Shown here piece by piece: positions 9,523 through 24,782 of a stretch of 64,000 nucleotides of DNA. Position numbers and translations under genes: made by a program. Under the pieces are notes generated by a model, which saw only the letters and a program-made list of their open reading frames with translations, was not told where the DNA came from and did no database searches. The DNA comes from Nitratidesulfovibrio termitidis HI1 (lineage in GTDB: Bacteria > Desulfobacterota > Desulfovibrionia > Desulfovibrionales > Desulfovibrionaceae): positions 3,350,404-3,414,403 of the forward strand of contig NZ_KI632512.1 of assembly GCF_000504305.1 (NCBI RefSeq), read 5' to 3'. The first letter of the stretch is position 1. Every line of letters starts with the position of its first letter.

Positions 9523-10515
9523 TTATGCCTCTTTGCCGCAGGGCGCAAGCTGGGCGGGAATGGCCGCCAGCACGGCCCGCGCGGCCTCGTGCGGCTGCAT
9601 GTCCAGTTCGGCCCCTGCCGCATTACGGTGCCCGCCGCCGCCAAAGGCCGCCGCAACCACGCGCACGTCATCCGTACCGCTGGAACGCAGGCTGATCTTG
9701 CTGCGGCCAGCGCCGTCACCGCGCACCATCAGCGATACGCGTACCCCGGCAAGGCGGCGCAGCTGAGAGGCGTACCCCTCAAGGTCGTCCTTGTCTGCCC
9801 CGTGCAGCGCGAACATGTCGTCGGTGATCACCGACACCGCCACTGCGCCGCCGCAGTGCAGCTCTATGCCCTGCATCAGCGCGCCCCACAGGCGCATGCG
9901 GCCGATGGACCAGTTGTTTTCCAGCCGGTCGTGGAACAGGCCGGGCTTCAGCCCCAGACGCACGATTTCCGCCGCCAGTTCCAGCAGTTCGCCACTGGTG
10001 CTGCCGTAGCAGAAGTTGCCGGTGTCCGTGCAGATGCCAAGGTACACCGCCTCGCCCAGCGGGCCGGAAAGCGGCACGCCCAGTTCGCGCGCCAGCATGC
10101 CCGCCATCTGGCAGGTGGCCGCAAGGTGCGGTTCCACCCAGTTGCCCACCGTGCCGAACATGGGATTGCCGAGGTGATGGTCGATGTTCACGCTGCGCAG
10201 TTCCGGCAGTCTGGCCTGCAGGTCGCCGCCCACGCGGTGCGCATCGCCGCAATCAAGGATAACCGCCAGGCGCGGGGTAAAACCTTCCAGTTCCGCCCAG
10301 GTGCGGGCCACCGGGCCGCCCATGTCCACCCAGCCGTACTGTTGCGGCACCCCGCTGGTGTTGTACAGCCGGAACCGCTTGCCCAGCGCGCGCAGCACAT
10401 GCGCCATCGCCGCCACCGCCCCGATGGCATCACCGTCCGGGTTGGCGTGGCTGGCCACGAGGATGTCGTCCTCTGCCCTGATGATGGCGGCTATGCTGGC
10501 TGCGGTGTCTGTCAT
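9523..10515 (-). CDS. nrnA: DHH/DHHA1 phosphoesterase, NrnA-type nanoRNase / pAp phosphatase
   Basis: A 330-residue cytoplasmic enzyme. DHH motifs: HANPDGDAIGA (residues 20-30), DCGDAHRVG, NIDHHLGN and CTDTGNFCYGSTSGE. The DHHA1 substrate-binding motif GGGGHRNAAGAEL is near the C-terminus. Members degrade 2-5-nt RNAs and dephosphorylate 3'-phosphoadenosine 5'-phosphate (pAp). It occupies the usual place beside truB. Upstream, a 327-nt spacer carries two structured repeats rather than rbfA. Confidence 0.92.
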   Translation of the reverse strand: MTDTAASIAAIIRAEDDILVASHANPDGDAIGAVAAMAHVLRALGKRFRLYNTSGVPQQYGWVDMGGPVARTWAELEGFTPRLAVILDCGDAHRVGGDLQARLPELRSVNIDHHLGNPMFGTVGNWVEPHLAATCQMAGMLARELGVPLSGPLGEAVYLGICTDTGNFCYGSTSGELLELAAEIVRLGLKPGLFHDRLENNWSIGRMRLWGALMQGIELHCGGAVAVSVITDDMFALHGADKDDLEGYASQLRRLAGVRVSLMVRGDGAGRSKISLRSSGTDDVRVVAAAFGGGGHRNAAGAELDMQPHEAARAVLAAIPAQLAPCGKEA

Positions 10516-10539
10516 GGTGGGGTTCCTGCGGAGCGGGGG

Positions 10540-10672
10540 AGTTTACTATCAGGAGAGGAGCCGGGGAGGGGACCTTTTGCGGCAGCCGTTATGTGAGCGC
10601 TCGCGCGAACATTACGGATGGCGTCCGCAAAGCGTAAAAAGGTCTCCCTCCCTGGACCCCTCCCCTCCAAAC
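10540..10672. repeat. Intergenic palindromic element, left half (imperfect long hairpin)
   Basis: An imperfect inverted repeat: left arm CCGGGGAGGGGACC then TTTTGCGG then CCGTTATGT; right arm ACATTACGG then TCCGCAAA then GGTCTCCCTCCCTGG. The apex is GAGCGCTCGCGCGA. No protein-like reading frame. With the next entry it fills the 327-nt gap between ylxP and nrnA, inside the rimP-pnp operon. Confidence 0.7.
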
Positions 10673-10731
10673 TTTTCAAATGGGGGGCGACGTTGCCCGA
10701 GTAGGGCACCTGGCTTTGCGCGGCGGGATTT

Positions 10732-10815
10732 TCGTTTGCTGGCAAGGAAAACAAGACAGCCGGGAGGGAGCGTACTCTTTGGTACGTGACCGATCCGGGT
10801 GGCGACGTTTGACGC
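10732..10815. repeat. Intergenic structured repeat with shared core (copy R1)
   Basis: Contains GCTGGCAAGGAAAACAAGAC (10738-10757) and the core GGGAGCGTAC-TCTTT-GGTACGTGACC (10766-10791). Both motifs recur in the flgH-flgI element, the core recurs in the flgI-flgJ element, and the first motif in the flgF-flgG element. The CGTAC/GTACG pair can close a small stem. Function unknown. Confidence 0.75.
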
Positions 10816-10842
10816 AGCCAGCAGGCGAAGGGCCCGTCGCGC

Positions 10843-11133
10843 CTATTCGGCGGCGAAAAATTCAACGTCGCTATACGTCATCTCTTCGGGGCACACGGCT
10901 TCCATCATGGCCAGGCACTTGTCGAGGCGGCTTTGCAGGTGCCGCTCGCTGTTGCTTACCGAAACCACGGCCAGCGACAGCCGGGTCAGGGAATCCTGGT
11001 TGCGCACCTCGGCGATGGACACGTTGAAGGTGTTGCGCACCTTCGTCTTCAAACTGTTGGCGATGCGCCGCTTCCCTTTCAGGGAATCGTTGCCGTGCAG
11101 CTCAAATTCCACCGTGAGCACGCCGATGATCAT
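10843..11133 (-). CDS. ylxP: DUF503 family protein YlxP
   Basis: A 96-residue small protein (MIIGVLTVEFELHGNDSLKGKRR..., then NVSIAEV, SVSNSERHLQSRL) typical of DUF503/YlxP, which accompanies infB and rbfA in many bacteria; a role in ribosome assembly or translation is suspected but not settled. It lies 123 nt downstream of infB. The rbfA gene that often comes next is absent here. Confidence 0.9.
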   Translation of the reverse strand: MIIGVLTVEFELHGNDSLKGKRRIANSLKTKVRNTFNVSIAEVRNQDSLTRLSLAVVSVSNSERHLQSRLDKCLAMMEAVCPEEMTYSDVEFFAAE

Positions 11134-11256
11134 GGGGGTGCCGCGCCGCGTGGCGCATCGTTGACGAACCGGCGGGGCAAATCCCGCGCCAGTAAATCGG
11201 CAGGGCAGGAGGCTTGCGCCCCCTGCCCGCCGGAGGCAATCGTTGTCTGTCTATCC

Positions 11257-14200
11257 TTACAGCGTGGCGGCTTCTTCGACCATCTCGAAGGCTTCGATGA
11301 TGTCGCCGATCTTGATGTCGTTGAAGTTTTCAAGGCCAACGCCGCATTCGTAGCCCTTCAGGACTTCCTTCATGTCGTCCTTGAAGCGCTTGAGGGACGT
11401 GATCTTGCCGGTGTAGACCACCACGCCGTCGCGCAGCAGGCGTACCCCTGCGTTGCGGGTGATCTTGCCGTCCGCAACGTGGCAGCCAGCGATGGTGCCC
11501 ACCTTGGGCACACTGAAGGTCTGCCGCACTTCCACCTGACCCAGGTACACTTCGCGCTGCACCGGGGCGAGCATGCCTTCCATGGCGCTCTTCACTTCAT
11601 CCACGAGCTTGTAGATGATGTCGTAGAAGCGGATGTCCACGTTCTCCTGCTCGGCGATGTCCTTGACCTTGGCGGTCGGACGGACGTTGAAGCCGATGAT
11701 GATGGCGTCGGAGGCCGATGCCAGCAGGATGTCGGATTCGGAGATGGCCCCGGCGCCGCCGTGGATGATGTTGATGCGGACCTTCTCGGTGCTGAGCTTG
11801 CGCAGCGCCTCGGAGATGGCTTCCAGCGAGCCCTGCACGTCGGCCTTGACGACAAGGTTGAGCACCAGGGCTTCCTGGTCGTCGGCGCGGCGGGACAGGA
11901 ACGTTTCCAGGGTAACCTTGGATTCGCGGGCCAGTTCCTTTTCGCGCTGCTTCACGGCGCGGGTTTCCGCGATGCGGCGGGCGAGCTTTTCGTCCGTCAC
12001 GCACACGAATTCCTCGCCAGCTTCGGGCACGCCCTCGAAGCCCTGCACTTCCACCGGCATGGCGGGGCCGGCTTCCTTCACCTTCTTGCCCTGGTCGTTG
12101 AACATGGCGCGCACGCGGCCGCTGAACACGCCGCACACGAAGGTGTCGCCCTGGCGCAGGGTGCCTTCCTGGATCAGCACGGTGGCCACGGGGCCACGGC
12201 CCTTGTCCAGCTTGGCTTCCACGATGTGGCCGCGGGCGGGCTTGTCGGGGTTGGCCTTGAGCTCAAGGATTTCGGCTTGCAGGGCCAGCAGTTCCAGCAG
12301 TTCGTCAAGGCCCTGGCGGGTCTTGGCCGACACGTGGCTGAACACGGTATCGCCGCCCCAGGCTTCGGACACCAGGCCCATTTCCGCCAGTTCGCGCTGC
12401 ACGCGTTCCGGGTTGGCGCCTTCCTTGTCCATCTTGTTGACGGCAACCATGATGGGCACGCCAGCGGCCTTGGAGTGGTTCACCGCTTCGCGGGTCTGCT
12501 CCATGACGCCGTCGTCGGCGGCCACCACCAGCACGACGATGTCGGTCACCTGCGCGCCGCGGGCACGCATGGCGGTGAACGCTTCGTGGCCGGGCGTATC
12601 GAGGAACACGATTTCACCCTTCTTGGTGGTCACGTGGTACGCGCCGATGTGCTGGGTGATGCCGCCCGCTTCGCCCATGGTGACGTTGGTCTTGCGGATG
12701 GCGTCGAGCAGCGAGGTCTTGCCGTGGTCGACGTGGCCCATGATGGTGACCACGGGCGGCCGATGCTGCAAGGCTTCGGGTGCGTCCACTTCCTTGGGGA
12801 TCAGGTAGTCGTCTTCCGAGAAGCCCACCTTTTCCACTTCGTAGCCGAATTCAGAGGCCACAAGGGTGGCGGTTTCGATGTCCAGCGACTGGTTGATGGT
12901 CGCCATGACGCCGAGGCCGAACAGCACCTTGATGATTTCGGTGGACTTCAGACCCATCTGGTGGGCCATGTCGGCCACGCGGATGGCTTCCTCGACCTTG
13001 ATCTTGCGCTTGGCGGCCTTCAGCGGCTGGGTGGCGGTGGCGGCCTTCATGTCGCGGCCCTTGCGCCCCTTGCCGCGGCGGGCGCCGCCACGGGGGAAAT
13101 CGTCGTCCTCGCGGCCACGCGCGGCGCGGTCGGCGCCGGGCTGGAAGTCCACCGTGCGGCGGCCCTTCAGGCGCTTCTTCTTGCTCTGGCCTTCGTCGCC
13201 GCCTGCCGGGGGCTGGCCCATGCCGGGACCACCAGGGCCGCCGGGACCACCAGGACGGGGACCGTAGCCGGGGCCGCCGGGGCCACCGGGACGGGGACCA
13301 CCGGGACCGCCGGGACGGTAACCGCCGGGGCGATCACCGCCGGGGCCGCCGGGACCACCAGGACGGGGACCGTAGCCGGGCCGATCGCCACCAGGACCGC
13401 CGGGGCGGGGGGCGTAGCCGGGCCGGTCGCCGCCGGGACCACCAGGACGGGGACCGTAGCCGGGGCGATCACCACCGGGACCACCGGGACGGGGCGCATA
13501 GCCCTGCCGGTCGCCAGCGTAAGCGGGCCGGTCGCCGCCGGGGCCGCCGGAGCGGGGCTGATAGCCCTGCCGGTCGCCATAAGCGGGGCGGTCGTCCCTG
13601 TCAGGGCGGTCGCCTTCGCGCGGGTAGGGGCGCGGAGCCGGAGCGGAAGGATCGGGACGGGAAATGACGCGGACCTGCGGTCCGGGCACGTCGGGCGTGC
13701 GCTTCTTTTTCCTGCGGCGGTTGCCGTCCGCGTCGTCCTCGTCACCGTCCATGCCTTCACCGCGCGGGGCGGCGTCGGCTGCCACGGGGGGCAGGATGGA
13801 CGGCTGGGGAGTGGCGTCGGGCATGGCCGAAGCGTCGGGCCGGGCCGGACGGATGATCCGCGCAGTGGGCGTGGCGGGCTTTTCGGCCTTGGATTCGCCA
13901 GACTTGTCAGCCTCGGCAGACGCAGGAGCCTCGGAGGGTGCGGAAGCAGCCTGTGCGGCTTCTGCCTGCACGGCGGCGGGCTTGTCCGCCCCGACCGGGC
14001 CGGCGGGTGCAGCGGCCACGGGCGCCGCGGGGGCTGCCTCTGCCGGTGCTGCCGTGACGGGCGCGGGCTCGTCGTGGCGACGGATGATGCGCGCGGCGGG
14101 CGTGGCAGCGCGTGCCTCGGGCGCCGCGGGGGCTTCGGCGCGGGCGGCACGGGTGGGCCGTTCGTCAGCTGCGGGCTGCACGGGCGCTTCGGCCTTGGCG

Positions 14201-14529
14201 GCTTCGGTGGCGCCAGCGTCGCCGGCGTCGGCACCGCCAGAGGCGGCTTCGCGCTCTTCGGCACGACGACGCACGGGGGCTTCGCCCTCTTCGCCGTCGC
14301 GGCGGCGGCGGCGCACGATAACGCCGGGCTGCACCACCTTGCGGTCAACGCCCGCTTCGGCGGTCTGGCCCTGATGGCGTTCGCGCACGCGGCTGACCTC
14401 GTCGGCGGTGAGCATGGTCATCACGCTCTTGGCCGGTATGTCGAGATCGCGCAGCGTGTGGAGCAGATCTTTGGTGGACATGCCCAGCTCCGTGGACAGG
14501 TCCTTCACCCTGGTCTTGTCGTCGGTCAT
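11257..14529 (-). CDS. infB: Translation initiation factor IF-2
   Basis: A 1090-residue GTPase that brings initiator tRNA to the 30S subunit. Start at 14529 ([17 protein letters not shown], the IF2 N-terminal domain), overlapping the ylxR stop in ATGA. The N-terminal half holds Ala/Pro/Glu-rich stretches and a run of Gly-Pro-Arg-Pro-Gly-Gly/Asp-Arg-Pro-Gly-Tyr repeats (encoded at about 13200-13600). The G domain follows with [17 protein letters not shown] and NKMDK, then domains II-IV. At 1090 residues it is longer than E. coli IF2 (890); the repeats account for much of the difference. Confidence 0.97.
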
Positions 14530-14777
14530 TCCTGAACCCCCTTGCGCTTCCTTCGCCAGCCGCCGAACTTCCGGAATCGCTCCCGGCATTCGGGGCTTTC
14601 GCATACGTAGAACCCGCGTCCAGGCAGTGTCTGCCTTTCGTCCGGAACGGGGTCGGCCCCCGCCCCGGCGGCGTCCGTCGGGGGGACGTACCGCAGAAGC
14701 TCGCGCTTTGCAAAGCGGCGCCTGCATATGACGCAGGTGCGTAATGGTATGTGCTTCCCGCGGATGGCGTCATCCAT
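14526..14777 (-). CDS. ylxR: YlxR family RNA-binding protein (DUF448)
   Basis: An 83-residue basic protein with [20 protein letters not shown] and the [16 protein letters not shown] motif of YlxR. It lies 7 nt after nusA and shares the ATGA overlap with infB, so all three are translated together. YlxR proteins bind RNA and modulate transcription or RNase P in other bacteria; the role here is inferred. Confidence 0.92.
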
Positions 14778-14784
14778 CCGCGTA

Positions 14785-16140
14785 CTATTCCTTCGCTTCG
14801 GCTTCGGTTCCTTCGCCCTGTTCCTGTGCAGGCGCCTCTACGGCGTCCTGCCCGGACTCCGGAGCGGCTTCCGCATCCGGTTCGGCAGTCGCGTCGGCAT
14901 CTTCCTGCGCCTGGGGCGCAAGGAAGTTGATGGCTGCGCGCAGGTCGGCGATCTTGCCCGGCGCAAGGCCCAGCGCCGAGGCGAGTTCCTCGTCGTCGGC
15001 CTCGCGCAGGCGTTCGATGGACTGGAACCCTGCCGCGATGAACTGTTCGATGGAGATTTCGGCGACGCTGGCGATCTGCTCGAGCCCGCGTCCGATGGCG
15101 TTGGCCTCGTTGTAGCGGGTTTCGGTGTAGATATCTATCTTCCAGCCCAGCAGTTTCGCGGCCAGCTTCACGTTCTGGCCCTTGCGGCCGATGGCGTTGG
15201 TAAGCTGGTCGTCGGGCACGATGACTTCGAGCAGGTTCTCTTCCTCGTCCACCACGATGCGCGAGATCACCGCCGGGGAAAGGGCGTTGCGGGCGTATGT
15301 GGCGATGTCCGGGCTCCAGACCACGATGTCGATGCGCTCGCCGCGCATTTCCTGCACGATGTTCTGGATGCGCGAACCGCGAATGCCCACGCAGGCGCCC
15401 ACCGGATCCACGTCGCGGTCGCGCGACATGACGGCGGCCTTGGCGCGGCTGCCGGGGTCGCGCGAAACGCCCATGATCTGCACGGTGCCGTCGTCCACCT
15501 CGGGCACTTCACGGCGGAACAGGGCCGCCATGTAGTCGCGGTGCGCGCGGGAAACGATGACCTGCGGGCCGCGGCCTTCCTTGCGCACGTCGATGAGGAT
15601 GGCCTGCACCCGGTCGCCGCGCTTGTAATGCTCGCGCGGGATCTGTTCTTCCTTGGGCAGCAGCGCTTCGGTGCGGCCAAGGTTGATGATCCACCCGGCC
15701 TTGTCGCGGCGCTGGATGATGCCGCTGACGATTTCGCCCCGGCGATCCTTGTATTCCTCGTAGATGATCTCCTGCTCCGCGTCGCGCATGCGCTGGATGA
15801 TCACCTGCTTGGCCGACTGGGCGGCGATGCGACCAAGGTCCTCGATCTTCACGCGGAAGCCCATTTCGTCGTCCAGCTGTACGCTGGGATCGTGGGTGCG
15901 CGCGTCCTCGAGCGAAATTTCGCTGTTCGGGTTCTCGACCTCTTTCACGACGATCTTGAACTGATAGACGTCTATCTCGCCGGTCTCGTCATTGTAGCTG
16001 ACTTCGGCGTCCATTTCGTCGCCGAACTTGCGGGCCACGGAGGTGCGGACGGCTTCCTCCAGGGTGTCGATCAGCATGTCGCGGTCAAGGCCCTTGTCCT
16101 TGCTGATCTGGTCGATGGCCTTCTTGAGTTCCAGGCTCAT
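14785..16140 (-). CDS. nusA: Transcription termination/antitermination factor NusA
   Basis: A 451-residue RNA polymerase-binding factor. GGAGGAGT precedes the start at 16140. N-terminal polymerase-binding domain (MSLELKKAIDQISKDKGLDR), S1 domain (GEIVSGIIQRRDKAGWIINLG), KH1 (VGACVGIRGSRIQNIVQEM) and KH2 (LTNAIGRKGQNVKLAAKL), then a short helical repeat (GLAPGKIADLRAAINF) and an acidic Ala/Glu tail. It probably acts on the terminator-like leader hairpin of its own operon. Confidence 0.97.
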   Translation of the reverse strand: MSLELKKAIDQISKDKGLDRDMLIDTLEEAVRTSVARKFGDEMDAEVSYNDETGEIDVYQFKIVVKEVENPNSEISLEDARTHDPSVQLDDEMGFRVKIEDLGRIAAQSAKQVIIQRMRDAEQEIIYEEYKDRRGEIVSGIIQRRDKAGWIINLGRTEALLPKEEQIPREHYKRGDRVQAILIDVRKEGRGPQVIVSRAHRDYMAALFRREVPEVDDGTVQIMGVSRDPGSRAKAAVMSRDRDVDPVGACVGIRGSRIQNIVQEMRGERIDIVVWSPDIATYARNALSPAVISRIVVDEEENLLEVIVPDDQLTNAIGRKGQNVKLAAKLLGWKIDIYTETRYNEANAIGRGLEQIASVAEISIEQFIAAGFQSIERLREADDEELASALGLAPGKIADLRAAINFLAPQAQEDADATAEPDAEAAPESGQDAVEAPAQEQGEGTEAEAKE

Positions 16141-16163
16141 GGGTACTCCTCCGGATCGGTGGC

Positions 16164-16880
16164 CTAGTCCGTGGTGTCGTCGTGCGGCGCGCCGCCGCGT
16201 GCGGGCTTCTTGGGCTGCGCCTTCTTGCGCTGGCCGGTCTTGCCGCCGGGCTGGGGCCGGGTCGTGTCGGGAAAAACGTGGACGAGGTGCGCCTTTTTCA
16301 CGTCGTCCCACGCCACACTGATGGGGGCGGGGTCTTCGTCGGGGCGGGGCGCGGTGTCGGGCAGAAAGGTGAGGGTGTCGCCTTCCACCCGTACGATGTC
16401 AGCCCGGAACTTGCGGCGGCCCGGCCATTCCGGCTGGGGCGCCGCAAGGGTGAGTTCGATGGTGCGGCCAACGTAGGGGACCGTCTGGGATATCTCGAAG
16501 AACGGGCGTTCCAGCCCCGGCGAGGACACTTCGAGCACGTAGGCGTCGCGGATCACGTCTTCCACGTCCAGGGCAAGGCCAAGCTGGCGCGAAAGGCGGG
16601 CGCACTGGTCTATGGTCACGCGTTCGGGGGTGACGCCGTCCGGGGTAACGCCGTCCGGGGTAACGCCTACAGGGGCGACATCATCTTGTGCGGTGTCTTC
16701 CGGCGTGGCGCCTTCGTTCGTGTCGGCGGGGGCGGGCATGCCGGGCCTGGCGTCCACGTACACGCGCAGCACCATGCGCCCCCCGTCAAGAATCTCGATG
16801 CCCCACAGGGCAATGCCCAGGGCGTCGGCCAGGGGCGTGGCAATGGCGGCGACGGCGTCGCGGAGGGGATGCGTGCTCAT
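16164..16880 (-). CDS. rimP: Ribosome maturation factor RimP
   Basis: A 238-residue protein for 30S assembly, first gene of the rimP-pnp operon. RimP signatures: DALGIALWGIEIL, VTIDQCARLSRQLGLALDVED, YVLEVSSPGLERPF. An insertion near residues 50-85 contains repeated GVTPDGVTPDG units (encoded at about 16615-16670 as near-identical 15-base repeats), so it is longer than the usual 150-170 residues. The C-terminus is Lys/Arg-rich. No strong ribosome binding site is visible at 16880. Confidence 0.93.
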   Translation of the reverse strand: MSTHPLRDAVAAIATPLADALGIALWGIEILDGGRMVLRVYVDARPGMPAPADTNEGATPEDTAQDDVAPVGVTPDGVTPDGVTPERVTIDQCARLSRQLGLALDVEDVIRDAYVLEVSSPGLERPFFEISQTVPYVGRTIELTLAAPQPEWPGRRKFRADIVRVEGDTLTFLPDTAPRPDEDPAPISVAWDDVKKAHLVHVFPDTTRPQPGGKTGQRKKAQPKKPARGGAPHDDTTD

Positions 16881-16923
16881 GATGCGGGGTAACGTCCGTT
16901 GTCGTGGGCGGCGGAGCCGCAGC

Positions 16924-16970
16924 AAAAAAAAAGGGGGCCAAAAGGCCACCCGGAATGGCCGCGTACGGCC
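16924..16970 (-). terminator. Leader attenuator: two hairpins and a U9 tract before rimP-nusA
   Basis: On the reverse strand: hairpin GGCCG-CGTA-CGGCC (16970-16957), then GGGTGGCC-TTTT-GGCCCCC (16951-16933), then nine T (16932-16924), 44 nt before the rimP start. This is a complete intrinsic terminator inside the 5' leader. In Bacillus subtilis a leader terminator before rimP-nusA lets NusA limit its own synthesis; the same logic is inferred here. Confidence 0.75.
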
Positions 16971-17070
16971 CTCAGGATGTCGAAGCGGCGTTGCCGTGGA
17001 GCGGTAAGGCGTGGCGCTCCGTGAAGCGATTCCAGAGGAATATCGGCAGCCGCTTCTGTCAAGACGCGAA

Positions 17071-17099
17071 TATATAGTATGAGACCGGGGGCATGTCAA
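17071..17099 (-). promoter_or_regulatory. sigma-70 promoter of the rimP-nusA-infB operon
   Basis: The reverse strand reads TTGACA (17099-17094), a 17-nt spacer, then TATATA (17076-17071). The expected transcript starts near 17064, leaving a leader of about 184 nt that contains the attenuator. Confidence 0.85.
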
Positions 17100-17265
17100 C
17101 AGGAGATGGCGCGGGGATTGATGCGGACCGCGCGGGGGCTGGCCGCAGGGGGCGTGAACGCGGGGATGAAGACCGTCGTTGTTCCGTCGGTCAGGTCCGC
17201 AAGTCGTGCCTTTCTGTCGGGGTACATGCGTTGCCACGCACCGGAATGATGCAGGTTTCCGGGTG

Positions 17266-17280
17266 TGGCCCACGCCTTGC
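17266..17280 (+). promoter_or_regulatory. sigma-54 promoter of the flgF operon
   Basis: TGGCCCACGCCTTGC: GG-N10-GC with full TTGC(A) at -12. It lies 41 nt upstream of the flgF start codon. Rod and hook genes of this family are commonly sigma-54 dependent. Confidence 0.85.
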
Positions 17281-17321
17281 AAATCCACTGGCGCGGGCAG
17301 CATGCCCGCAAGGAGGCACGC

Positions 17322-18101
17322 ATGCAAGAAGGCATGTTGTCGAGCCTGTTCGGCGCGCTCACCAATGAGCATCGCATGAACAATATCTCGAACAATCTCG
17401 CGAACGTGAATACCACGGGCTACAAGCGCGACGTCATATCCTTCAAGGATACCATGCAACTGTTCGCCCATGACCAGATCATGGAGCCCATTGCAAACGT
17501 GCGCTCGAAAAAGCTCTTTCCGGAGCCCATGCATGTGGCCCGGCCCCGCATAGCCGTGGCCCACACGGACTTCGAGCAGGGCAGCATGCGCTACACCGGC
17601 AACCCGCTGGACGTGGCCATCTCCGGCAACGCCTTTTTCAAGGTGCGTACCCCCGAAGGCGAATTCTACACCCGCAACGGCAACTTCATCCAGACCGCCG
17701 AAGGCCAGTTGGTAACCGCCATGGGCCATGCGGTGCAGGGTGACGGCGGCGACATTGCCCTGCCGCCCGGCGAGCAGGTGCAGATATCCGACGACGGGCA
17801 GATTTTCGCGGGCGGCGCACTTGTGGGCCAGTTGAACATGGTCACCGTCAACGACCTGACCGCCCTGGAAAAGCTGGGCGGCAACATGTACCGGCTGCGG
17901 CCCGGTTCCAACGCGGGCGAGGTGCCCGCCGAAGGCGCCTACGTGGCCCAGGGCTACCTGGAGGCGTCCAACGTCGAGGTGGTCTCTGAAATGGTGAACA
18001 TGATCGAAACCCAGCGGCAGTTCGAAGCGTACCAGAAAGTGATGCAGACCACCGATTCCATAGATCGGGAGGCAACCCAGAAGGTGGGCAAGAAAGTCTA
18101 G
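17322..18101 (+). CDS. flgF: Flagellar basal-body rod protein FlgF
   Basis: A 259-residue rod protein. AAGGAGG precedes the start at 17322. N-terminal rod motif NEHRMNNISNNLANVNTTGYKR (split signature ISNNLANVNTTGYK), internal FlgE/F/G motif NPLDVAISGNAFFKV, and C-terminal ASNVEVVSEMVNMIETQRQFEAYQ. Two FlgF/G-type genes occur in a row; this shorter-spaced first one is FlgF by order. It forms the proximal rod in the periplasm. Its TAG stop codon lies inside the left terminal repeat of the element that follows. Confidence 0.92.
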   Translation: MQEGMLSSLFGALTNEHRMNNISNNLANVNTTGYKRDVISFKDTMQLFAHDQIMEPIANVRSKKLFPEPMHVARPRIAVAHTDFEQGSMRYTGNPLDVAISGNAFFKVRTPEGEFYTRNGNFIQTAEGQLVTAMGHAVQGDGGDIALPPGEQVQISDDGQIFAGGALVGQLNMVTVNDLTALEKLGGNMYRLRPGSNAGEVPAEGAYVAQGYLEASNVEVVSEMVNMIETQRQFEAYQKVMQTTDSIDREATQKVGKKV

Positions 18102-18366
18102 GGAGTGTGTGCAAACGGTCCTTTTGCCCGCTGGCTTCCGACCCGAAGGGCGCGAAGCGTGGCCGTTGGGCGAGTCTGCGAGCCCTACGGACATCGTGCG
18201 CAACGCGGTCAAACTTCGCCTGCCATTTCAGTCAAATACCGAAGAGCGCGTTGCGGTCCTCATCCGTAAGGCTCGCAAACTCGCCCGACGGCTGAGGCAT
18301 ATTCCTTCATGGCAGTCTTGTTTTCCTCGCCAGCGAACAAAAAACCTGTTTGCAAACACTCCCTAG
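18098..18366. repeat. 269-nt palindromic element between flgF and flgG (copy R5)
   Basis: Termini are CTAGGGAGTGT...TGCAAAC and its inverse GTTTGCAAACACTCCCTAG, with outer arms of about 38 nt (18098-18135 / 18329-18366, about 31 matches). A second pair of arms of about 30 nt (18163-18192 / 18262-18291) shares GGGCGAGT-TGCGAGCC-TACGGA. The reverse strand carries GCTGGCGAGGAAAACAAGAC, 18 of 20 identical to the motif at 10738. No coding capacity is seen. The element looks like a non-autonomous mobile element or a structured RNA. Confidence 0.75.
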
Positions 18367-18429
18367 CGCTCCAGCCGCCCCAAAGCTTCTGACAACCGCC
18401 TCCGCGTGGGCATGCGTGACCTGCGCATC

Positions 18430-18444
18430 CGGCATTCGGTTTGC
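18430..18444 (+). promoter_or_regulatory. Candidate sigma-54 promoter of flgG
   Basis: CGGCATTCGGTTTGC, followed by A: GG-N10-GC with the GGCA and TTTGCA blocks intact. It lies 73 nt upstream of flgG and just downstream of the palindromic element, so flgG onwards could be transcribed independently of flgF. Confidence 0.65.
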
Positions 18445-18516
18445 AAACACCAGGCTGGCGGGCAACTACCGCCGGACAACTGACGGAACCAACCTCCTTG
18501 CAAGGAGACAACGACC

Positions 18517-19299
18517 ATGATGCGTTCACTCTGGACGGCCGCCACCGGCATGGTGGCCCAGCAGCTCAACATCGACGTGATCTCCAACAACCTCGCGAAC
18601 GTGAATACCACGAGCTTCAAGAAGAGCCGCGCGGAGTTCGAGGACCTCATGTACCAGAACATGCGCATCGCCGGTGCCGCCACCGAGGGGGATAACCGTA
18701 TTCCCACCGGTATCCAGGTGGGCATGGGTGTGCGCCCCACCACGGTGCACAAGTTCTTCACCCAGGGCGACTACTCCAACACCGGCAACTCGCTGGACCT
18801 CGCCATCGAAGGCGACGGCTTCTTTCTGGTGCAGGTGAACGGCGAAGACGCCTACACCCGTGCGGGCGCGTTCAAGCTGAACCAGGACGGGGTGGTGGTG
18901 ACCGCCAATGGCTACACCCTGCAGCCGGAATTCACCGTGCCCGCCGAAACCAAGAACATCACGGTGACGGAAAACGGGCACATTTCCGCCCTGGACACCA
19001 ATGGTGACGCCCTGGCCGAGGCCGACATCCCCCTCTACACCTTCATCAACCCGGCGGGCCTCGAAGCGCGTGGTCGCAACCTGTACGTTCCGTCCGAGGC
19101 ATCGGGCGAGGCGGTGGAAGGCGTGCCCGGCGAAGACAACGTGGGCACCATTGCCCAGGGCTTTCTGGAAATGTCCAACGTCGAGGTGGTGGACGAAATG
19201 GTGAACATGATCGTGGGCCAGCGCGCCTACGAAATGAACTCCAAGGCCATCCAGACGTCGGACACCATGTTGCAGACCGCCGTGCAGCTCAAGCGCTAG
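18517..19299 (+). CDS. flgG: Flagellar distal rod protein FlgG
   Basis: A 260-residue rod protein, exactly the usual FlgG length. AAGGAG at -11 supports the start (MMRSLWTAATGMVAQQLNIDV). ISNNLANVNTTSFKKSRAEFEDLMYQ is the FlgG N-terminal signature; NSLDLAIEGDGFFLV and MSNVEVVDEMVNMIVGQRAYEMNSK follow. It forms the distal rod that crosses the P and L rings. Confidence 0.96.
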   Translation: MMRSLWTAATGMVAQQLNIDVISNNLANVNTTSFKKSRAEFEDLMYQNMRIAGAATEGDNRIPTGIQVGMGVRPTTVHKFFTQGDYSNTGNSLDLAIEGDGFFLVQVNGEDAYTRAGAFKLNQDGVVVTANGYTLQPEFTVPAETKNITVTENGHISALDTNGDALAEADIPLYTFINPAGLEARGRNLYVPSEASGEAVEGVPGEDNVGTIAQGFLEMSNVEVVDEMVNMIVGQRAYEMNSKAIQTSDTMLQTAVQLKR

Positions 19300-19315
19300 A
19301 CCGGGGAGACACCGC

Positions 19316-20356
19316 ATGATCCGCCACCGCCGTTCCGCACCCACCCGCCATTCCGCCGTCATGGTATCCGCGTTCGCCGGTCCCATGGCCTGGCTGGCCG
19401 CACTGGCCCTTGCCGTCGGGCTGCTGGCCTTCGGCCTTGCCCCGGCCCGGGCTGGCACCGCCGACGCGGGCTGGCGCATCCGGCTGCTGGACGCCGCCGT
19501 GGTGTCCGGCGCAACGGTGACCCTGGGCGAGATCGCGGAGCCGGTGGGCCCCATTTCTCCGCAGGCCTGGCGCGAACTGGCCGCCACCCCGTTGTGGCCG
19601 TCGCCCACCGAGCCGGGCCGCCCCATGAGCGTCAACCGCCCGCGCCTGCAACAGGCCCTGCGCGAGGCCCTGCGCGATACCGAGTCGCTGTGTCTGTACC
19701 CCGGCACGCTGGTGCTCCAGCGCGGTGGCGCGGTGCTGCGCGAAGGCGACCTGCGCGCCCTTGCCGTCAGGACTCTGACACCCGCCCTGGCCGCCATGCC
19801 CGGCGAGGCGTCCATGCAGGACTATCGCCTCCCTCCCTACGTCTTTCTGGCACACCCGCAGCAGCAGGTGGTGATGGAAAACACTTTGGCCGCCCCCGGT
19901 CGCAACACCCTGCGTTTTTCCGTGCGTGAGGTGGACGGCAGCACCGTGCGCAAGTTTACCGGTTCCGCCTTCGTGGACGTGTGGGCCGACGTGCCCTGCG
20001 CCGCCCAGCCCGTGAACAGGGACGACGTGCTGACCCCGGACAAGATCACCCGCGTGCGCAAGAATCTGGCCTACCTGCGCGAACCCGCCTGGGACGGCCT
20101 GGGCGGCCCGTGGCGCCTGACCCGCCCTGTGGGCGCCGACCAGGTGATCTACCAGAGCGATCTTTCCGGCGTGCCCACCGTGCGGCGCGGCAGCGTGGTG
20201 ACCGTGCTGTACGATTCCGGCTCTGTGCGCCTGCAGGTGCAGGGCGAGGCCATGGCCGACGGCGGCCTTGGCGAGACCATTCCCGTGCGCAACATGCAAA
20301 GCAAGCGGCAGATATATGCCGCGGTGAAGGATGGGGGGACGGTGGTCGTCCGGTAA
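19316..20356 (+). CDS. flgA: Flagellar P-ring assembly chaperone FlgA
   Basis: A 346-residue periplasmic protein. A long signal peptide (basic start, hydrophobic MAWLAALALAVGLLAFGL, cleavage near APARAG at about residue 46). The C-terminal SAF domain holds VNRDDVLTPDKITRVRKNL, RLTRPVGADQVIYQSDL and VRRGSVVTVLYDSGSVRLQVQGEA. It helps FlgI assemble into the P ring. It lies 16 nt after flgG and is longer than E. coli FlgA (219) because of an extended N-terminal region. Confidence 0.92.
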   Translation: MIRHRRSAPTRHSAVMVSAFAGPMAWLAALALAVGLLAFGLAPARAGTADAGWRIRLLDAAVVSGATVTLGEIAEPVGPISPQAWRELAATPLWPSPTEPGRPMSVNRPRLQQALREALRDTESLCLYPGTLVLQRGGAVLREGDLRALAVRTLTPALAAMPGEASMQDYRLPPYVFLAHPQQQVVMENTLAAPGRNTLRFSVREVDGSTVRKFTGSAFVDVWADVPCAAQPVNRDDVLTPDKITRVRKNLAYLREPAWDGLGGPWRLTRPVGADQVIYQSDLSGVPTVRRGSVVTVLYDSGSVRLQVQGEAMADGGLGETIPVRNMQSKRQIYAAVKDGGTVVVR

Positions 20357-20410
20357 GGGGTCCCCTTACGGGCAGAATTCGCCTCATCCGCAATTTCAAG
20401 GAGAACCGTC

Positions 20411-21127
20411 ATGAAACGCAGACTGCTCGCCGCCGGGTGCGCCATGCTGTTGCTTTCCGGGTGCAATGCCGCCCGCCAGCAGCCTTCGCCGGTGCCGCCG
20501 GTCACGCAGCCGCAGGCCTATACCGAACCCGAGGACGCCGCCGCCAACCCCGGATCGCTGTACAGCGAATCGGACTCGGAGTTCCTGTTCTCCGACAACC
20601 GCGCCCGCCGGGTAGGCGACATCGTGCTGGTCAAGGTGGTGGAAACCGACAAGGCCAAGAACAAGGCAGATACCACCGCCGACAAGACCAGTACCAACGA
20701 ACTGGGCGTCAGCGCCTTCTTCGGGCAGTCCAGCGCGTCCATCAACCCCCTGAACCCCACGGGGCCATTCAGCGGGGCCGTGGGAGCCAACCCCGTCCTG
20801 GGCACCAGCTCCACTTCCAAGCATTCCGCCACCGGCGAAACCAAGCGTGAAAGCACCGTTACCACCACCATCGCCGCCCGCGTGCTGCGCGTGCTGCCCG
20901 GCGGTCTGATGGAAGTGGAAGGCGCCCGCGAAACCCGCGTCAACGACGAGACGCAGTACATCGTGGTCAGCGGTCTGGTGCGCGCCCGCGACGTGGCCTC
21001 TGACAACTCCGTGACCTCGTCGCAGATGGCCAACGCCCGCATCGAGTACTACGGAAAGGGCACGCTGGCGGACAAGCAGAAGCCGGGGTGGTTTACCCGT
21101 CTGATGGACAACGTCTGGCCTTTCTAG
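20411..21127 (+). CDS. flgH: Flagellar L-ring lipoprotein FlgH
   Basis: A 238-residue outer-membrane lipoprotein. Lipobox LLLSGC gives Cys at residue 18. FlgH motifs: SLYSESDSEFLFSDNRARRVGDIVLVKVVE, TTTIAARVLRVLPGGLMEVEGARE and YIVVSGLVRARDV. It forms the L ring around the rod. AAGGAG 8 nt before 20411 fixes the start. Confidence 0.96.
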   Translation: MKRRLLAAGCAMLLLSGCNAARQQPSPVPPVTQPQAYTEPEDAAANPGSLYSESDSEFLFSDNRARRVGDIVLVKVVETDKAKNKADTTADKTSTNELGVSAFFGQSSASINPLNPTGPFSGAVGANPVLGTSSTSKHSATGETKRESTVTTTIAARVLRVLPGGLMEVEGARETRVNDETQYIVVSGLVRARDVASDNSVTSSQMANARIEYYGKGTLADKQKPGWFTRLMDNVWPF

Positions 21128-21128
21128 T

Positions 21129-21536
21129 GCGAACGCGGCGATTCCGCCCGCATGCATCGTCAAACATTGCCGCCGCCGGGGTCGAGTACCAAAGAGTACA
21201 CTCCCCCGGCGGCGACTTCGTTTTCCTCGCCTGCGAACGGACTTGCCGCGTTCGCGCTACGCGACGCGTGTAAGGAGTGAAGAAGCAACACGCCCTCGTC
21301 GTCGGCCCCGCTTTCCTTGCCTGCGGGCAAGCCGGGCGCATTTCCTGTGCGTTGCCAGGCACGGGGGAAGAGGAAAAAACGTTTTTCCCCTCTACCGATA
21401 GGGTGTGGTGCGAAGGCGGCGAGTCCGTTCGCAGGCAAGGAAAACGGGATGTTCGCGACGGGAGTGTACGGGTTGGTACATGACCGGAGCGAACATCCCG
21501 TTTGACGATGTATGCGGGCGGAATCGCCGCCTTCGC
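21129..21536. repeat. 408-nt nested palindrome between flgH and flgI (copies R3 and R2 inverted)
   Basis: Outer arms 21129-21165 and 21500-21536 are inverse with 35 of 37 matches; inner arms 21220-21255 and 21410-21445 with 33 of 36. Between outer and inner arm on each side is a separate 54-nt hairpin. On the left its stem is CGCCGCCGGGG/CCCCGGCGGCG; on the right GGGATGTTCGC/GCGAACATCCC. The stems differ in sequence but both pair perfectly, and each carries the GGGAGYGTAC...GGTAC core (21180-21205 reverse, 21460-21485 forward). The centre holds AGAGGAAAAA-ACG-TTTTTCCCCTC. The following 21537-21744 shows no gene or clear motif. Confidence 0.8.
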
Positions 21537-21744
21537 GCTGGCACGGTGTTGGCAATAGCCGTAGGCAGCGCCGGAATACCGTCGGATACCCGTCGGTGCC
21601 GCGCCCTGCGGAATGCTTATTTCCTGACCGTCAGCAATCCGCGCGCCCCATCCCTTCGCGCACGTCCGGCCAATATCCGGCGCACATTCGGGGGGGGCGC
21701 CGCGTAACGGGCTGCCCGCGCAGCCGGATTTTCGGAGAAACGCC

Positions 21745-22869
21745 ATGTCGCCCAGCCTTCGTTCCCTCACCGCCCGCCTTCTCGTCGTCCCGCTGCTTGT
21801 GGCCCTGTGGCTGCTGGCCTTGCCGGGCGGCGCGGGGGCCGTGCGCATCAAGGACATCGCCAGTTTCGGCGGCGTGCGCGACAACCAGCTCGTGGGCTAC
21901 GGCCTGGTAGTGGGCCTGGGCGGCACGGGCGACAAGAAGGATTCCACCTTCACCATGAGTTCCATGGTCAACATGCTGGAACGCATGGGCGTGGCCGTGG
22001 ACCAGACCAAGATGAAGCCCAAGAACGTGGCCGCCGTCATGGTCACCACCCGCATGCCCGTTTCCGCCAAGCCGGGCACCCGCCTGGACGTCACCGTGTC
22101 GTCCATGGGCGACGCCACCAGCCTTCAGGGCGGGGTGCTGCTGCTCACGCCGCTGAAGGGCGTGGACGGCAAGGTGTACAGCCTGGCGCAGGGACCGCTG
22201 GCCCTGGGCGGCTTTTCCGTGGAAGGGCAGGCCGCCCGCGCCCAGAAGAACGTGACCACCGTGGGCACCATCCCCGGCGGGGCCATCGTGGAGCGGGGCA
22301 TTCCCTTCCAGTTCAACAGCCAGGATACGCTGACCCTGCACATGTCCAGCGCCGACTTTTCCACCACCATGCAGGTGGTGGAGCGGCTGAACCGGGTCAT
22401 GGGCGGCAGCTACGCCAAGGCCCAGGACGCCACCACCGTGGCCCTGGACGTGCCGCCCGCCTACCGGGGCAACCTGGTGCCGCTGATGGCCTCCATCGAA
22501 AACATCGAAGTAACCCCCGATGCCCCGGCCAAGGTGGTGGTGGACGAAAAGACCGGCACCGTGGTGCTGGGGCGCGACGTGCGCATCTCTCGCGTGGCCG
22601 TGGCCCACGGCAGTCTGCAGGTCACCGTGCAGGAAGGCATGGACGTTTCGCAGCCCGGCCCGTTCAGCCAGGGGCAGACCGTGGCCACCCCACGTACCGA
22701 CATCAACGTGCGTGAAGAAAACCGCCGTCTGATGCTCATGGAAGGGGCCACGTTGCAGGAACTGGTGGATGGCCTGAACGCCATCGGCGCCACCCCGCGC
22801 GATCTGGTCTCGATCCTTCGGGCCATGAAGACGGCGGGGGCGTTGCATGCCGATCTCGAAGTCATCTAG
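21745..22869 (+). CDS. flgI: Flagellar P-ring protein FlgI
   Basis: A 374-residue periplasmic protein with a cleavable signal ([21 protein letters not shown]). FlgI motifs: [47 protein letters not shown], and the C-terminal [50 protein letters not shown] before 21745 acts as the ribosome site. It forms the P ring in the peptidoglycan layer, assembled with FlgA. Confidence 0.97.
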
Positions 22870-22872
22870 CTG

Positions 22873-23002
22873 CGGCACAAGGGCCTTTTTGCCTCTGCCG
22901 TCGTCAGAACGCTTTTTTGTTCCGGTCGAGTACCACAAAAGTACGCTCCCTCCACAAAAAGAGCGTTCTTCCTCGGCAGAGACAAAAACTCCTCTTGTGC
23001 CG
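22873..23002. repeat. 130-nt palindromic element between flgI and flgJ (copy R4)
   Basis: The whole spacer folds on itself: CGGCACAAG...CTCTGCCG against CGGCAGAG...CTTGTGCCG, then AGAACGCTTTTTTGT against ACAAAAAGAGCGTTCT. The apex on the reverse strand is the shared core GGGAGCGTAC-TTTTGT-GGTACTCGACC (22950-22924). It begins 4 nt after the flgI stop. Confidence 0.8.
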
Positions 23003-23075
23003 GGGCTCGCGCCGCCAACCGGATTACCCGGTTGCAGATGCGCGAGGTTCCAGCCCAGTCGGAAGGACAGTAGCC

Positions 23076-24782
23076 ATGACCGCTCCCGTTGATCCGAAAC
23101 TCGCCACTGCCGCCTCGGCCCAGCACGAGCTTACCCAGCGCAAGCTCGAGATGGATGCCCTGCGCAAGCGCCTGCGCAACGATCCGTCCAAGGAACAGAA
23201 GCTGCGCGAGGCGTGCGAGGGGTTCGAATCCATCTTCGTGCAGAAGATGTGGGAACAGATGCGCGCCACCCTGCCCAAGGAAGGCTACCTGCACAGCAAG
23301 GAGGAGGAATTCTGGCAGTCCATGTTCGATCAGGAGCTTGCCAAAAAGATGACCGCCGCCGGGGGCATCGGGCTGGCGGACATGATCTACGAACAGCTTT
23401 CCACCAAGTTGACCGACGCCAGCCGCACCACTGCGCCCAGTTCCGTGCGCGAACCGGTGCCGGTGAAGCCGGTGTCGCTGGTGCCGCGCATGATCACCCC
23501 CGCGTCCGAGGGCGCGAGCGGGGCCAACGGGATCAACGGGGTCGGCGGGAAGACCGGTGCCGCTTCGTCCATGTACGAGCCCGCCAGTCCGGAAGCGCCC
23601 GTGGCGGGCGACGCCCAGGTTCCGGGCACGGCCGGGACGGACGCGAAGACCGTATCGGCAAATCAGGCTGAACCGGCAAATCAGGCCCCATCGGCAAGTC
23701 AGGCCATCGTCCAGCAGCATCTGGCCGAACTGGAGCGTCAGGTTGCCGCCGCATCCTCGGCTGACGCAGCCAGCCCGGCGGCATCAGGCGTAGCGGCGGC
23801 AGCAGCGGGGATTGCTGTCCCGGGCACCGTTGCCGCCACTGGCGCAGCTGCCATCCAACCCGGCACGGCACCGGCTGCCGCAGCCGAGGCCGGGCAGGCC
23901 GCGGCCGTTACCAGGGCCCAGCGCCGTGCCGCACGGGACAAGGACGGCGCCATGCACGGTCTGCCCTCCGCGTCGGTGGCGGACGGGAATACACGCAAGG
24001 TGCGCAGCCCCATGCGCGACGCCCAGTTGGGCCCGCCCATCGTGCATCGTACCGGGGCCATGAAGCGGGTGTCCTCGCCCTCGGCCACGCGCACGCTTAA
24101 TGTGCCTACGGGCGCGCCATCAGCCGCAGAATTGCAGGCCGCGCAGGCGGCACAGGCCGCCGTATCCGGCGACGGGGCCGTCGGCGCAGCCTCCCCGACA
24201 ACTGGCGCAACGTCCCCGACAACTGGCGCCGCAACTCCGGGCGCCGCATCGTCAGCCCCCACGGCCACCCCGGCCAGCACTGCCACTCCGGTTGCCCCGA
24301 CTTCCAAGGCCTCTCCAACGGGCGGCCCTGCGGTGGCCTCTGGCACTCCGGGTTCCATGACCTGGCCGCATGAGGGGCGCATCGCCTCCGGTTTCGGCTG
24401 GCGCAACGACCCCATCACCGGCGAACGGGCCTGGCATCCGGGCGTGGACATTGCCGTGACCGAGGGCGACCCGGTGCGCGCGGCGTGGGACGGCAAGGTG
24501 GTCTTTGCCGGAGAACGGGCCGACTACGGCAGGCTGGTGGTGCTGGAGCATCCCGGCGGCTGGCGCAGTTTTTACGGCCATAACGGCAGCCTGGACGTGC
24601 ACGAGGGTGACGCTGTCCGCGCGGGCACGGAAATTGCCAAGGCAGGGGAGACGGGCCGCGTTGCCGGGCCGCATCTTCACTTCGAGGTGCGCCAGGGCGA
24701 ACTGGCGGTGAACCCGGAATACGCGGCGCGCAGCCTCGCTTCCGGGGGTGTCGCGGCACAACGGACCCGCACCGGAGGATAA
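23076..24782 (+). CDS. flgJ: FlgJ-type rod-binding protein fused to an M23 (LytM) peptidase
   Basis: A 568-residue protein. Residues 25-115 are the FlgJ rod-binding domain (KLREACEGFESIFVQKMWEQM, SMFDQELAKKMTAAGGIGLADM). A linker of more than 300 residues rich in Ala/Pro/Thr/Gly follows (residues 120-425). The C-terminus is an M23 metallopeptidase with the zinc ligands HPGVDIA (H-x3-D) and HLHFEV, and a GYN-like SFYGHNG region. In E. coli the second domain of FlgJ is a glucosaminidase; here an endopeptidase takes its place. It opens the peptidoglycan for the growing rod. Start at 23076 after GGAAGGA. No signal peptide is visible, as for FlgJ. Confidence 0.9.
   Translation: MTAPVDPKLATAASAQHELTQRKLEMDALRKRLRNDPSKEQKLREACEGFESIFVQKMWEQMRATLPKEGYLHSKEEEFWQSMFDQELAKKMTAAGGIGLADMIYEQLSTKLTDASRTTAPSSVREPVPVKPVSLVPRMITPASEGASGANGINGVGGKTGAASSMYEPASPEAPVAGDAQVPGTAGTDAKTVSANQAEPANQAPSASQAIVQQHLAELERQVAAASSADAASPAASGVAAAAAGIAVPGTVAATGAAAIQPGTAPAAAAEAGQAAAVTRAQRRAARDKDGAMHGLPSASVADGNTRKVRSPMRDAQLGPPIVHRTGAMKRVSSPSATRTLNVPTGAPSAAELQAAQAAQAAVSGDGAVGAASPTTGATSPTTGAATPGAASSAPTATPASTATPVAPTSKASPTGGPAVASGTPGSMTWPHEGRIASGFGWRNDPITGERAWHPGVDIAVTEGDPVRAAWDGKVVFAGERADYGRLVVLEHPGGWRSFYGHNGSLDVHEGDAVRAGTEIAKAGETGRVAGPHLHFEVRQGELAVNPEYAARSLASGGVAAQRTRTGG

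Follow-up and report, generated by a model that had tools for sequence, protein, structure and literature searches.

The window analysed here, a stretch of 64,000 nucleotides of Nitratidesulfovibrio termitidis HI1 (contig NZ_KI632512.1, positions 3,350,404 to 3,414,403), carries among its flagellar (flg) genes several copies of a long intergenic hairpin. These copies probably belong to a non-autonomous family of mobile hairpins, similar in kind to repetitive extragenic palindromic (REP) and enterobacterial repetitive intergenic consensus (ERIC) elements, that targets stop codons in one direction only and is mobilised by way of a folded single strand. Sister species differ by the precise presence or absence of individual copies; the foot of the hairpin lies mostly at a stop codon, usually TAG, and in one orientation; and the stems covary. 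An earlier interpretation of the same DNA, made from the letters alone (the sequence-only reading), had described conserved cores. That these are parts of a mobile repeat, present in about 100 copies and tied to stop codons, was not visible to it.

The sequence-only reading had singled out four intergenic copies of a core, GGGAGYGTAC-N5/6-GGTACNYGACC, at hairpin tips. All four are exact at the positions and on the strands given in Table 1, and no match was found in 100 dinucleotide-preserving shuffles. The second motif it had noticed, GCNGGCRAGGAAAAC, is also exact, at 10738 (+), 21220 (-), 21431 (+) and, in the flgF-flgG element, 18320 (-); with up to two mismatches allowed there are 13 matches against 1.4 expected, and a variant, GCCGAGGAAGAAC, accompanies the fourth core. 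The flgF-flgG element is of the same family as the four core copies, with further hairpins inserted. The names flgF, flgG, flgA, flgH and flgI were confirmed above NCBIfam cut-offs. In the source genome (G000, a single contig of 4.26 Mb) a wider pattern, GGGAGYGTACN{3,9}GTACNYGACC, has 23 matches (9 on the + and 14 on the - strand) and its reversed control none. The same pattern is present in 14 of the 99 genomes searched, including G000 and all seven others of the genus. In all 23 matches the predicted fold is a long hairpin with the core at its tip, as had been proposed, and flanking complementarity is seen in the copies, the outer arm being unpaired in two of the 23 (L003 and L021). The four copies of the window represent one subtype; many copies in G000 carry GTAT at the tip in place of GTAC.

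The core is the tip of a bigger imperfect hairpin, and the whole unit, outer stem included, measures about 125-150 bp. Its parts, in 5' to 3' order along the core strand, are a copy-specific outer stem, a stem of some 12 pairs, a lower internal loop, a further stem of some 15 pairs and, last, the core tip. The lower internal loop, C(A/G)AGGAA facing YTGACG, coincides with the second motif. Read by eye, both loops could form tandem G.A pairs, and the foot of the element is G/C-rich and variable; folding with long flanks overextended the stems and was not used to set the outer foot. A covariance model of 118 positions, built from 23 copies, has 102 matches in G000 at E<1e-3 (150 of 1980 candidates scored). 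In an alignment of 84 distinct rows, which was fitted to the model and is hence biased towards it, the 35 stem pairs are formed in 93.0% of cells compared with 74.5% after shuffling, and the covariation score is 0.544 compared with 0.210, a value equalled in none of 500 shuffles. Changes on both sides occur in 32 of the 35 pairs. A coding role was rejected by inspection, because the short peptide that the GTAT type could encode is put out of frame by inserts of 48-52 bases and because the stems covary. No copy reached the gathering threshold of an Rfam family in the window, in five loci of the source genome or in 12 loci from outside the family Desulfovibrionaceae, which agrees with the earlier failure to name a family; the sole overlap, with MIR2670, is far under threshold (23.5 bits against 117, E 0.36).

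The two strands of the element do not fold equally well. The core strand, which is antisense to the adjacent gene, has the lower predicted RNA energy in 81 of 84 copies (mean -96.9 compared with -81.0 kcal/mol) and forms 494 G.U pairs compared with 297 on the opposite strand. Among the pairs of the model, G.T fills 146 cells and A.C 25, or about 62 and 25 when two columns where G.T is common are left out. This excess, together with tandem G.A loops on the core strand, would suit independent small RNAs made from that strand and antisense to the end of the neighbouring gene. Such RNAs are nevertheless a highly improbable explanation for about 100 variable copies per genome that are polymorphic for filled and empty sites (see below), the more so as no sigma-70-like promoters, against 1.2 expected, were found in positions 10400-23300 of the window.

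Siting relative to genes was tested in 83 of the 102 genome copies (86 rows fetched, minus duplicates and one copy too near the end of its locus). The claim that the cores are intergenic holds for all but one of these (L005), which lies within a called gene. With a custom gene caller, the nearest 3' neighbour is a gene on the opposite strand in 78 copies. In a test based on open reading frames (ORFs), the foot of the hairpin adjoins the stop codon of an opposite-strand gene in 69 of the 83, compared with 2 in the mirrored control. The adjoining stop codons are TAG in 56 cases, TAA in 8 and TGA in 5, whereas the respective numbers are 71, 29 and 54 among 154 background stops (p=9e-7), which come from genes of unbiased blocks and of the window, its few element-bearing genes included. 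Copies of the same genus lie at a stop codon in 33 of 44 cases (counted without a mirrored control), and those of other genera, to which the gene model is less suited, in 29 of 65 compared with 2 of 65 mirrored.

Alignments of orthologous intergenic regions reveal six sites that are filled in some sister species and empty in others: four called E1 to E4, one more in the same region, and the stop codon of flgG. Five of these sites coincide exactly with a called gene's stop codon, YTAG or YTAA. At flgG, the stop codon reads TAG in the three empty genomes, whereas the three filled genomes have TAA and then GGG; the joint there thus falls after the second base of the stop codon. One stop codon may hold different variants in different species, as at E3, flgG and flgF. 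Copy 1 is found at the orthologous place in all six species compared, G000 included. The flgF-flgG site is likewise filled in six of six, by differing sequence variants whose tip and arm inserts vary between species, and the number of copies in the flgH-flgI gap also differs between species. Extra DNA behind some insertions was considered as transduced flank, an idea that was rejected; in G006 the extra DNA at the flgG site looks, by eye, like the remnant of an older copy.

Table 1. Element copies, inserted hairpins and an empty target site in the window
Feature	Positions	Strand	Core	Adjoining stop codon and remarks
Free second hairpin (CCGTTATG..CATTACGG)	10577..10636	+		At the tip of another small palindrome
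Element copy 1	10718..10842	+	10766-10791	3' foot adjoins TAG (reverse strand, 10843-10845) of gene 10843-11133(-)
flgF-flgG element	18102..18363	-		Directly after flgF TAG (18099-18101); second hairpin in tip, further insert in one arm
flgG stop codon	19297..19299	+		Empty target in G000, G005 and G007; filled in G001, G004 and G006
Element copy 2	21128..21257	-	21180-21205	Directly after flgH TAG (21125-21127)
Element copy 3	21410..21538	+	21460-21485	Exception: no adjoining stop codon
Element copy 4	22874..23001	-	22924-22950	4 bases past flgI TAG (22867-22869)

The orientation of the copies is also linked to replication. GC skew in 20 unbiased 10-kb blocks places the origin of G000 at about 2.6 Mb and its terminus at about 0.6 Mb. 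The contig itself starts at a dnaA-family gene near 1 kb, and another DnaA-family gene is located at 2.70 Mb. The contig start was rejected as the origin because the skew points to about 2.6 Mb, a choice that reverses the sign of the bias: with the contig start as origin the copies would divide 70 to 32 in the opposite sense. With the origin near 2.6 Mb, the gene-sense strand runs with the fork, and the core strand against it, in 74 of the 102 copies (p=6e-6); the coding length running with the fork is about 47% (called genes in the sampled blocks, in the window and in two additional stretches). In G046, a genome of another genus, 19 of 20 loci follow the chromosome halves (40 of the 41 matches listed). 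The ORFs at the start of its contig have the sizes expected for dnaA-dnaN-gyrB (by eye, no family search), and if the contig does start at these genes, the sign of the bias is the same as in G000.

In the mechanism that we propose, an enzyme would recognise the fixed loops of the folded single strand, whether DNA or RNA, and the stems would be free to drift provided that pairing persists. The copy would be joined to the gene-sense strand at YTA/G; the element would therefore often provide the final base of the stop codon, and the gene would be spared. The inserted hairpin would then be the immediate 3' untranslated region (UTR) of the gene, and old copies would decay or give way to new ones at that stop codon. 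Mobility might instead come from an ordinary DDE transposase acting on miniature inverted-repeat transposable elements (MITEs). A YTAR or TA target is the rule for IS5-like DDE transposases, and the inverted outer ends, the YTAR at most junctions and the CTAG or TA repeated at both ends of E1 are as expected of such elements. A palindromic target, however, should give both orientations at stop codons, not 69 against 2 of 83, and no clear duplication is seen at the other sites. Neither the strong covariation with fixed unpaired loops nor the replication-strand bias is expected of MITEs, and we regard this origin, with targets of the palindromic YTAR or TA type, as very unlikely.

The family is not confined to one genus. 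Matches were found in 74 of 247 Desulfovibrionaceae genomes, G000 included, representing 16 of 44 genera, and a search of the phylum (with rough E-values) gave matches in 48 of 297 genomes and 37 of 199 genera, 40 of the 48 genomes being outside Desulfovibrionaceae. From the matches outside the family 20 stretches were picked, which hold 22 matches and 21 distinct sequences. A text search within each of these finds CRAGG of the lower loop in all 21 and YTGAC in 17. The tip described by the sequence-only reading, with GGGAG and YGACC each in 2 of the 21, is confined to one genome, G552. The rest form two further subtypes, one ending at a TAG stop codon with the same 15-nt offset (see below), the other ending in CAAAGGTCTC-like repeats and lying mostly away from stop codons. 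The tip GGGAGYRYAC-loop-GTRYNYGACC is thus common within Desulfovibrionaceae, but the family-wide signature is the lower internal loop, which, judged by sequence, is the most widely kept part across the phylum. The earlier idea of a recognition element with a fixed tip on a variable stem therefore stands in outline, as the stems covary and the loops and tip are fixed, but not in its emphasis on the tip. In another genus, diverged copies spaced 340-420 bp apart were observed at L166 (G046:C1:888500-900900), L167, L168 and L171, those of L166 lying within 355-bp tandem repeat units; L062 (G145:C1:14630-15355) holds five head-to-tail copies at a spacing of about 152 bp.

Several results weigh against a mobile hairpin family aimed at stop codons and moved as a folded single strand. 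Searches for Y1 and reverse-transcriptase families identified no mobilising enzyme. G000 has no match to the RAYT-type family Y1_Tnp (PF01797) even at E<=10, and only partial matches to it occur, in two of the eight same-genus genomes. RVT_1 (PF00078) is present in two of the eight, G007 and G000 (where a single gene lies at 1.649 Mb, E 1.5e-13), and was not found in the other six, among them G002, which is 75% complete. Genomes of the genus thus do not regularly carry the usual helpers of REPs or of retroelements, although G000 does have one reverse transcriptase. The best-folding core strand runs against the fork, contrary to the classical lagging-strand model of IS200/IS605 elements. In genome G239 the orientation bias is weak (36+/23- compared with 20+/31- by halves, p=0.03; 110 of the 121 matches listed) and, should both contigs begin at the origin, its sign is opposite to that in G046. 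As to the target, that of E4 is not a stop codon, and its duplication is not constant, TA or CTAG being repeated at E1 and no repeat being clear elsewhere. Under half of the copies in other genera adjoin a recognised stop codon. Outside the family a lax test, allowing 0-60 nt, shows no difference between the two sides (11 of 22 compared with 10 of 22 mirrored); stop targeting there is thus supported by the fixed offset alone, a TAG at a single distance of 15 nt in 7 of 22 matches. Finally, the flgI copy (copy 4) is in the same place in six of six species and is more conserved than its noncoding flank (119 of 128 identical columns compared with 47 of 75), and this apparently constrained copy suggests a host function for some members.

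Such a function is the core of another explanation, in which the hairpins act in cis in the 3' UTR and are kept for ending transcription, protecting mRNA 3' ends or slowing the terminating ribosome, mobility being incidental. Besides the flgI copy, the 69 of 83 copies that begin at a stop codon are in its favour, as is the ribosome stalling reported in PMC12306157 for E. coli REPs lying no more than 15 nt from a stop codon. It is the mRNA-sense strand, however, that folds worse in all but 3 of the 84 copies and that bears the A.C side of the wobble pairs. T-run terminators are not in excess in positions 10400-23300 of the window (13 compared with 10.9 expected); none of the 13 lies at an element end, and the sole one within a copy is in its middle. 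The sites are often empty in sister species, and the replication bias is left unexplained. A role in cis as the reason for the family is therefore unlikely.

For the mobile family the strands are in conflict; a folded core strand joined through its complement would fit insertion copied from RNA or from a template. If insertion were RNA-templated, as in short interspersed nuclear elements, this would account for the folded strand being antisense to the gene. With a reverse transcriptase in only two of the eight genomes of the genus, that enzyme would need to be gained and lost over time or be provided from elsewhere. A more specific proposal, which we hold to be unlikely, is a distinct class of mobile elements directed at the translation stop signal. 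In such a class an enzyme other than a resident Y1 transposase would copy the core strand, folded as RNA or single-stranded DNA around the loop that the phylum shares, into the gene-sense strand or join it to that strand between bases 2 and 3 of UAG or UAA. That would place the joint where RelE-type enzymes cut; as reported in PMC5224514, these cleave mRNA in terminating ribosomes. Whichever enzyme is responsible, the family points to a mobilising activity, and the loop and the target are sharp enough to lead to it. Long hairpins of this kind stand immediately at stop codons in several sulfate reducers, where they may influence translation termination and the ends of mRNAs. We know of no case in which targeting is restricted for the most part to stop codons and to one orientation, the internal loop is conserved phylum-wide and no obvious transposase is present. 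A literature search of titles and abstracts found no description of the element family in Desulfovibrio, which does not show that none is in print.

The hairpins themselves receive insertions. In 17 of the 84 copies of the source genome (loose text search), the tip of the first element carries an inserted second hairpin of about 50 bases (CCGTTATGCGAG..CGAGCATTACGG). Examples are the tip of 18187-18353(-) in the window, L101, L102, L105 and others, besides the free copy at 10577-10636. The free copy is absent from G004, where the palindrome alone is left, and from G005, where the intergenic region is also shorter. The second hairpin may be one that targets hairpin tips, since its free copy sits at a palindrome tip that is empty in G004. 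A relative of about 70 bases is inserted directly past the conserved TTTGAC in the lower loop, likewise where the bases are unpaired, in window 18139-18207 (flgF-flgG), L118, L123, L021, L003 and the G005 copy of the 10718 element. Insertions inside ERIC copies also occur.

Among known systems, the IS200/IS605 derivatives called palindrome-associated transposable elements insert in a hairpin-dependent and strand-specific manner 3' of a short target, make no constant duplication and follow the direction of replication. The present family shares with them the hairpin and a replication-linked orientation, and may also share precise insertion at a short target with no constant duplication. It differs in that no Y1 transposase was found in G000 and that the better-folding strand is the opposite one. 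ERIC elements, also called intergenic repeat units (127 bp), and YPAL are similar in length, in forming one long imperfect hairpin and in being intergenic; the passages on them in PMC2267715 mention neither a stop-codon foot nor a lower loop kept across a phylum. Integron attC sites have RYYYAAC/GTTRRRY at the foot and go with a resident IntI, whereas the foot of the present element, read by eye, is G/C-rich and variable. The GTAG REPs and bacterial interspersed mosaic elements are described in PMC3733652 as high-copy intergenic palindromes of 20-40 bp, mostly downstream of genes and often accompanied by a Y1 transposase gene (RAYT, or TnpA_REP). Placement 3' of genes, a TAG-type foot and high copy number are common to both. 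The present element, however, is 118-150 bp long with two fixed internal loops, its TAG is the gene's own stop codon within YTA(G/A) and not the GTAG of a REP, and a Y1 gene is lacking in G000. The CGTC-tagged REPs of the same source are palindromic repeats without a dedicated transposase, and CGTC occurs in the lower loop of the element on the gene-sense strand; their stems of 8-9 bp and loops of 4-5 bases are unlike the far longer hairpin that holds it here. The word Desulfovibrio is absent from the main text of that paper (Di Nocera et al., 2013). Because of the transposase and the strand, we place the family among mobile hairpins and not as a REP, and its nearest working analogue would be the single-strand mechanism of REP/RAYT and IS200/IS605, whose usual transposase was not found in G000.

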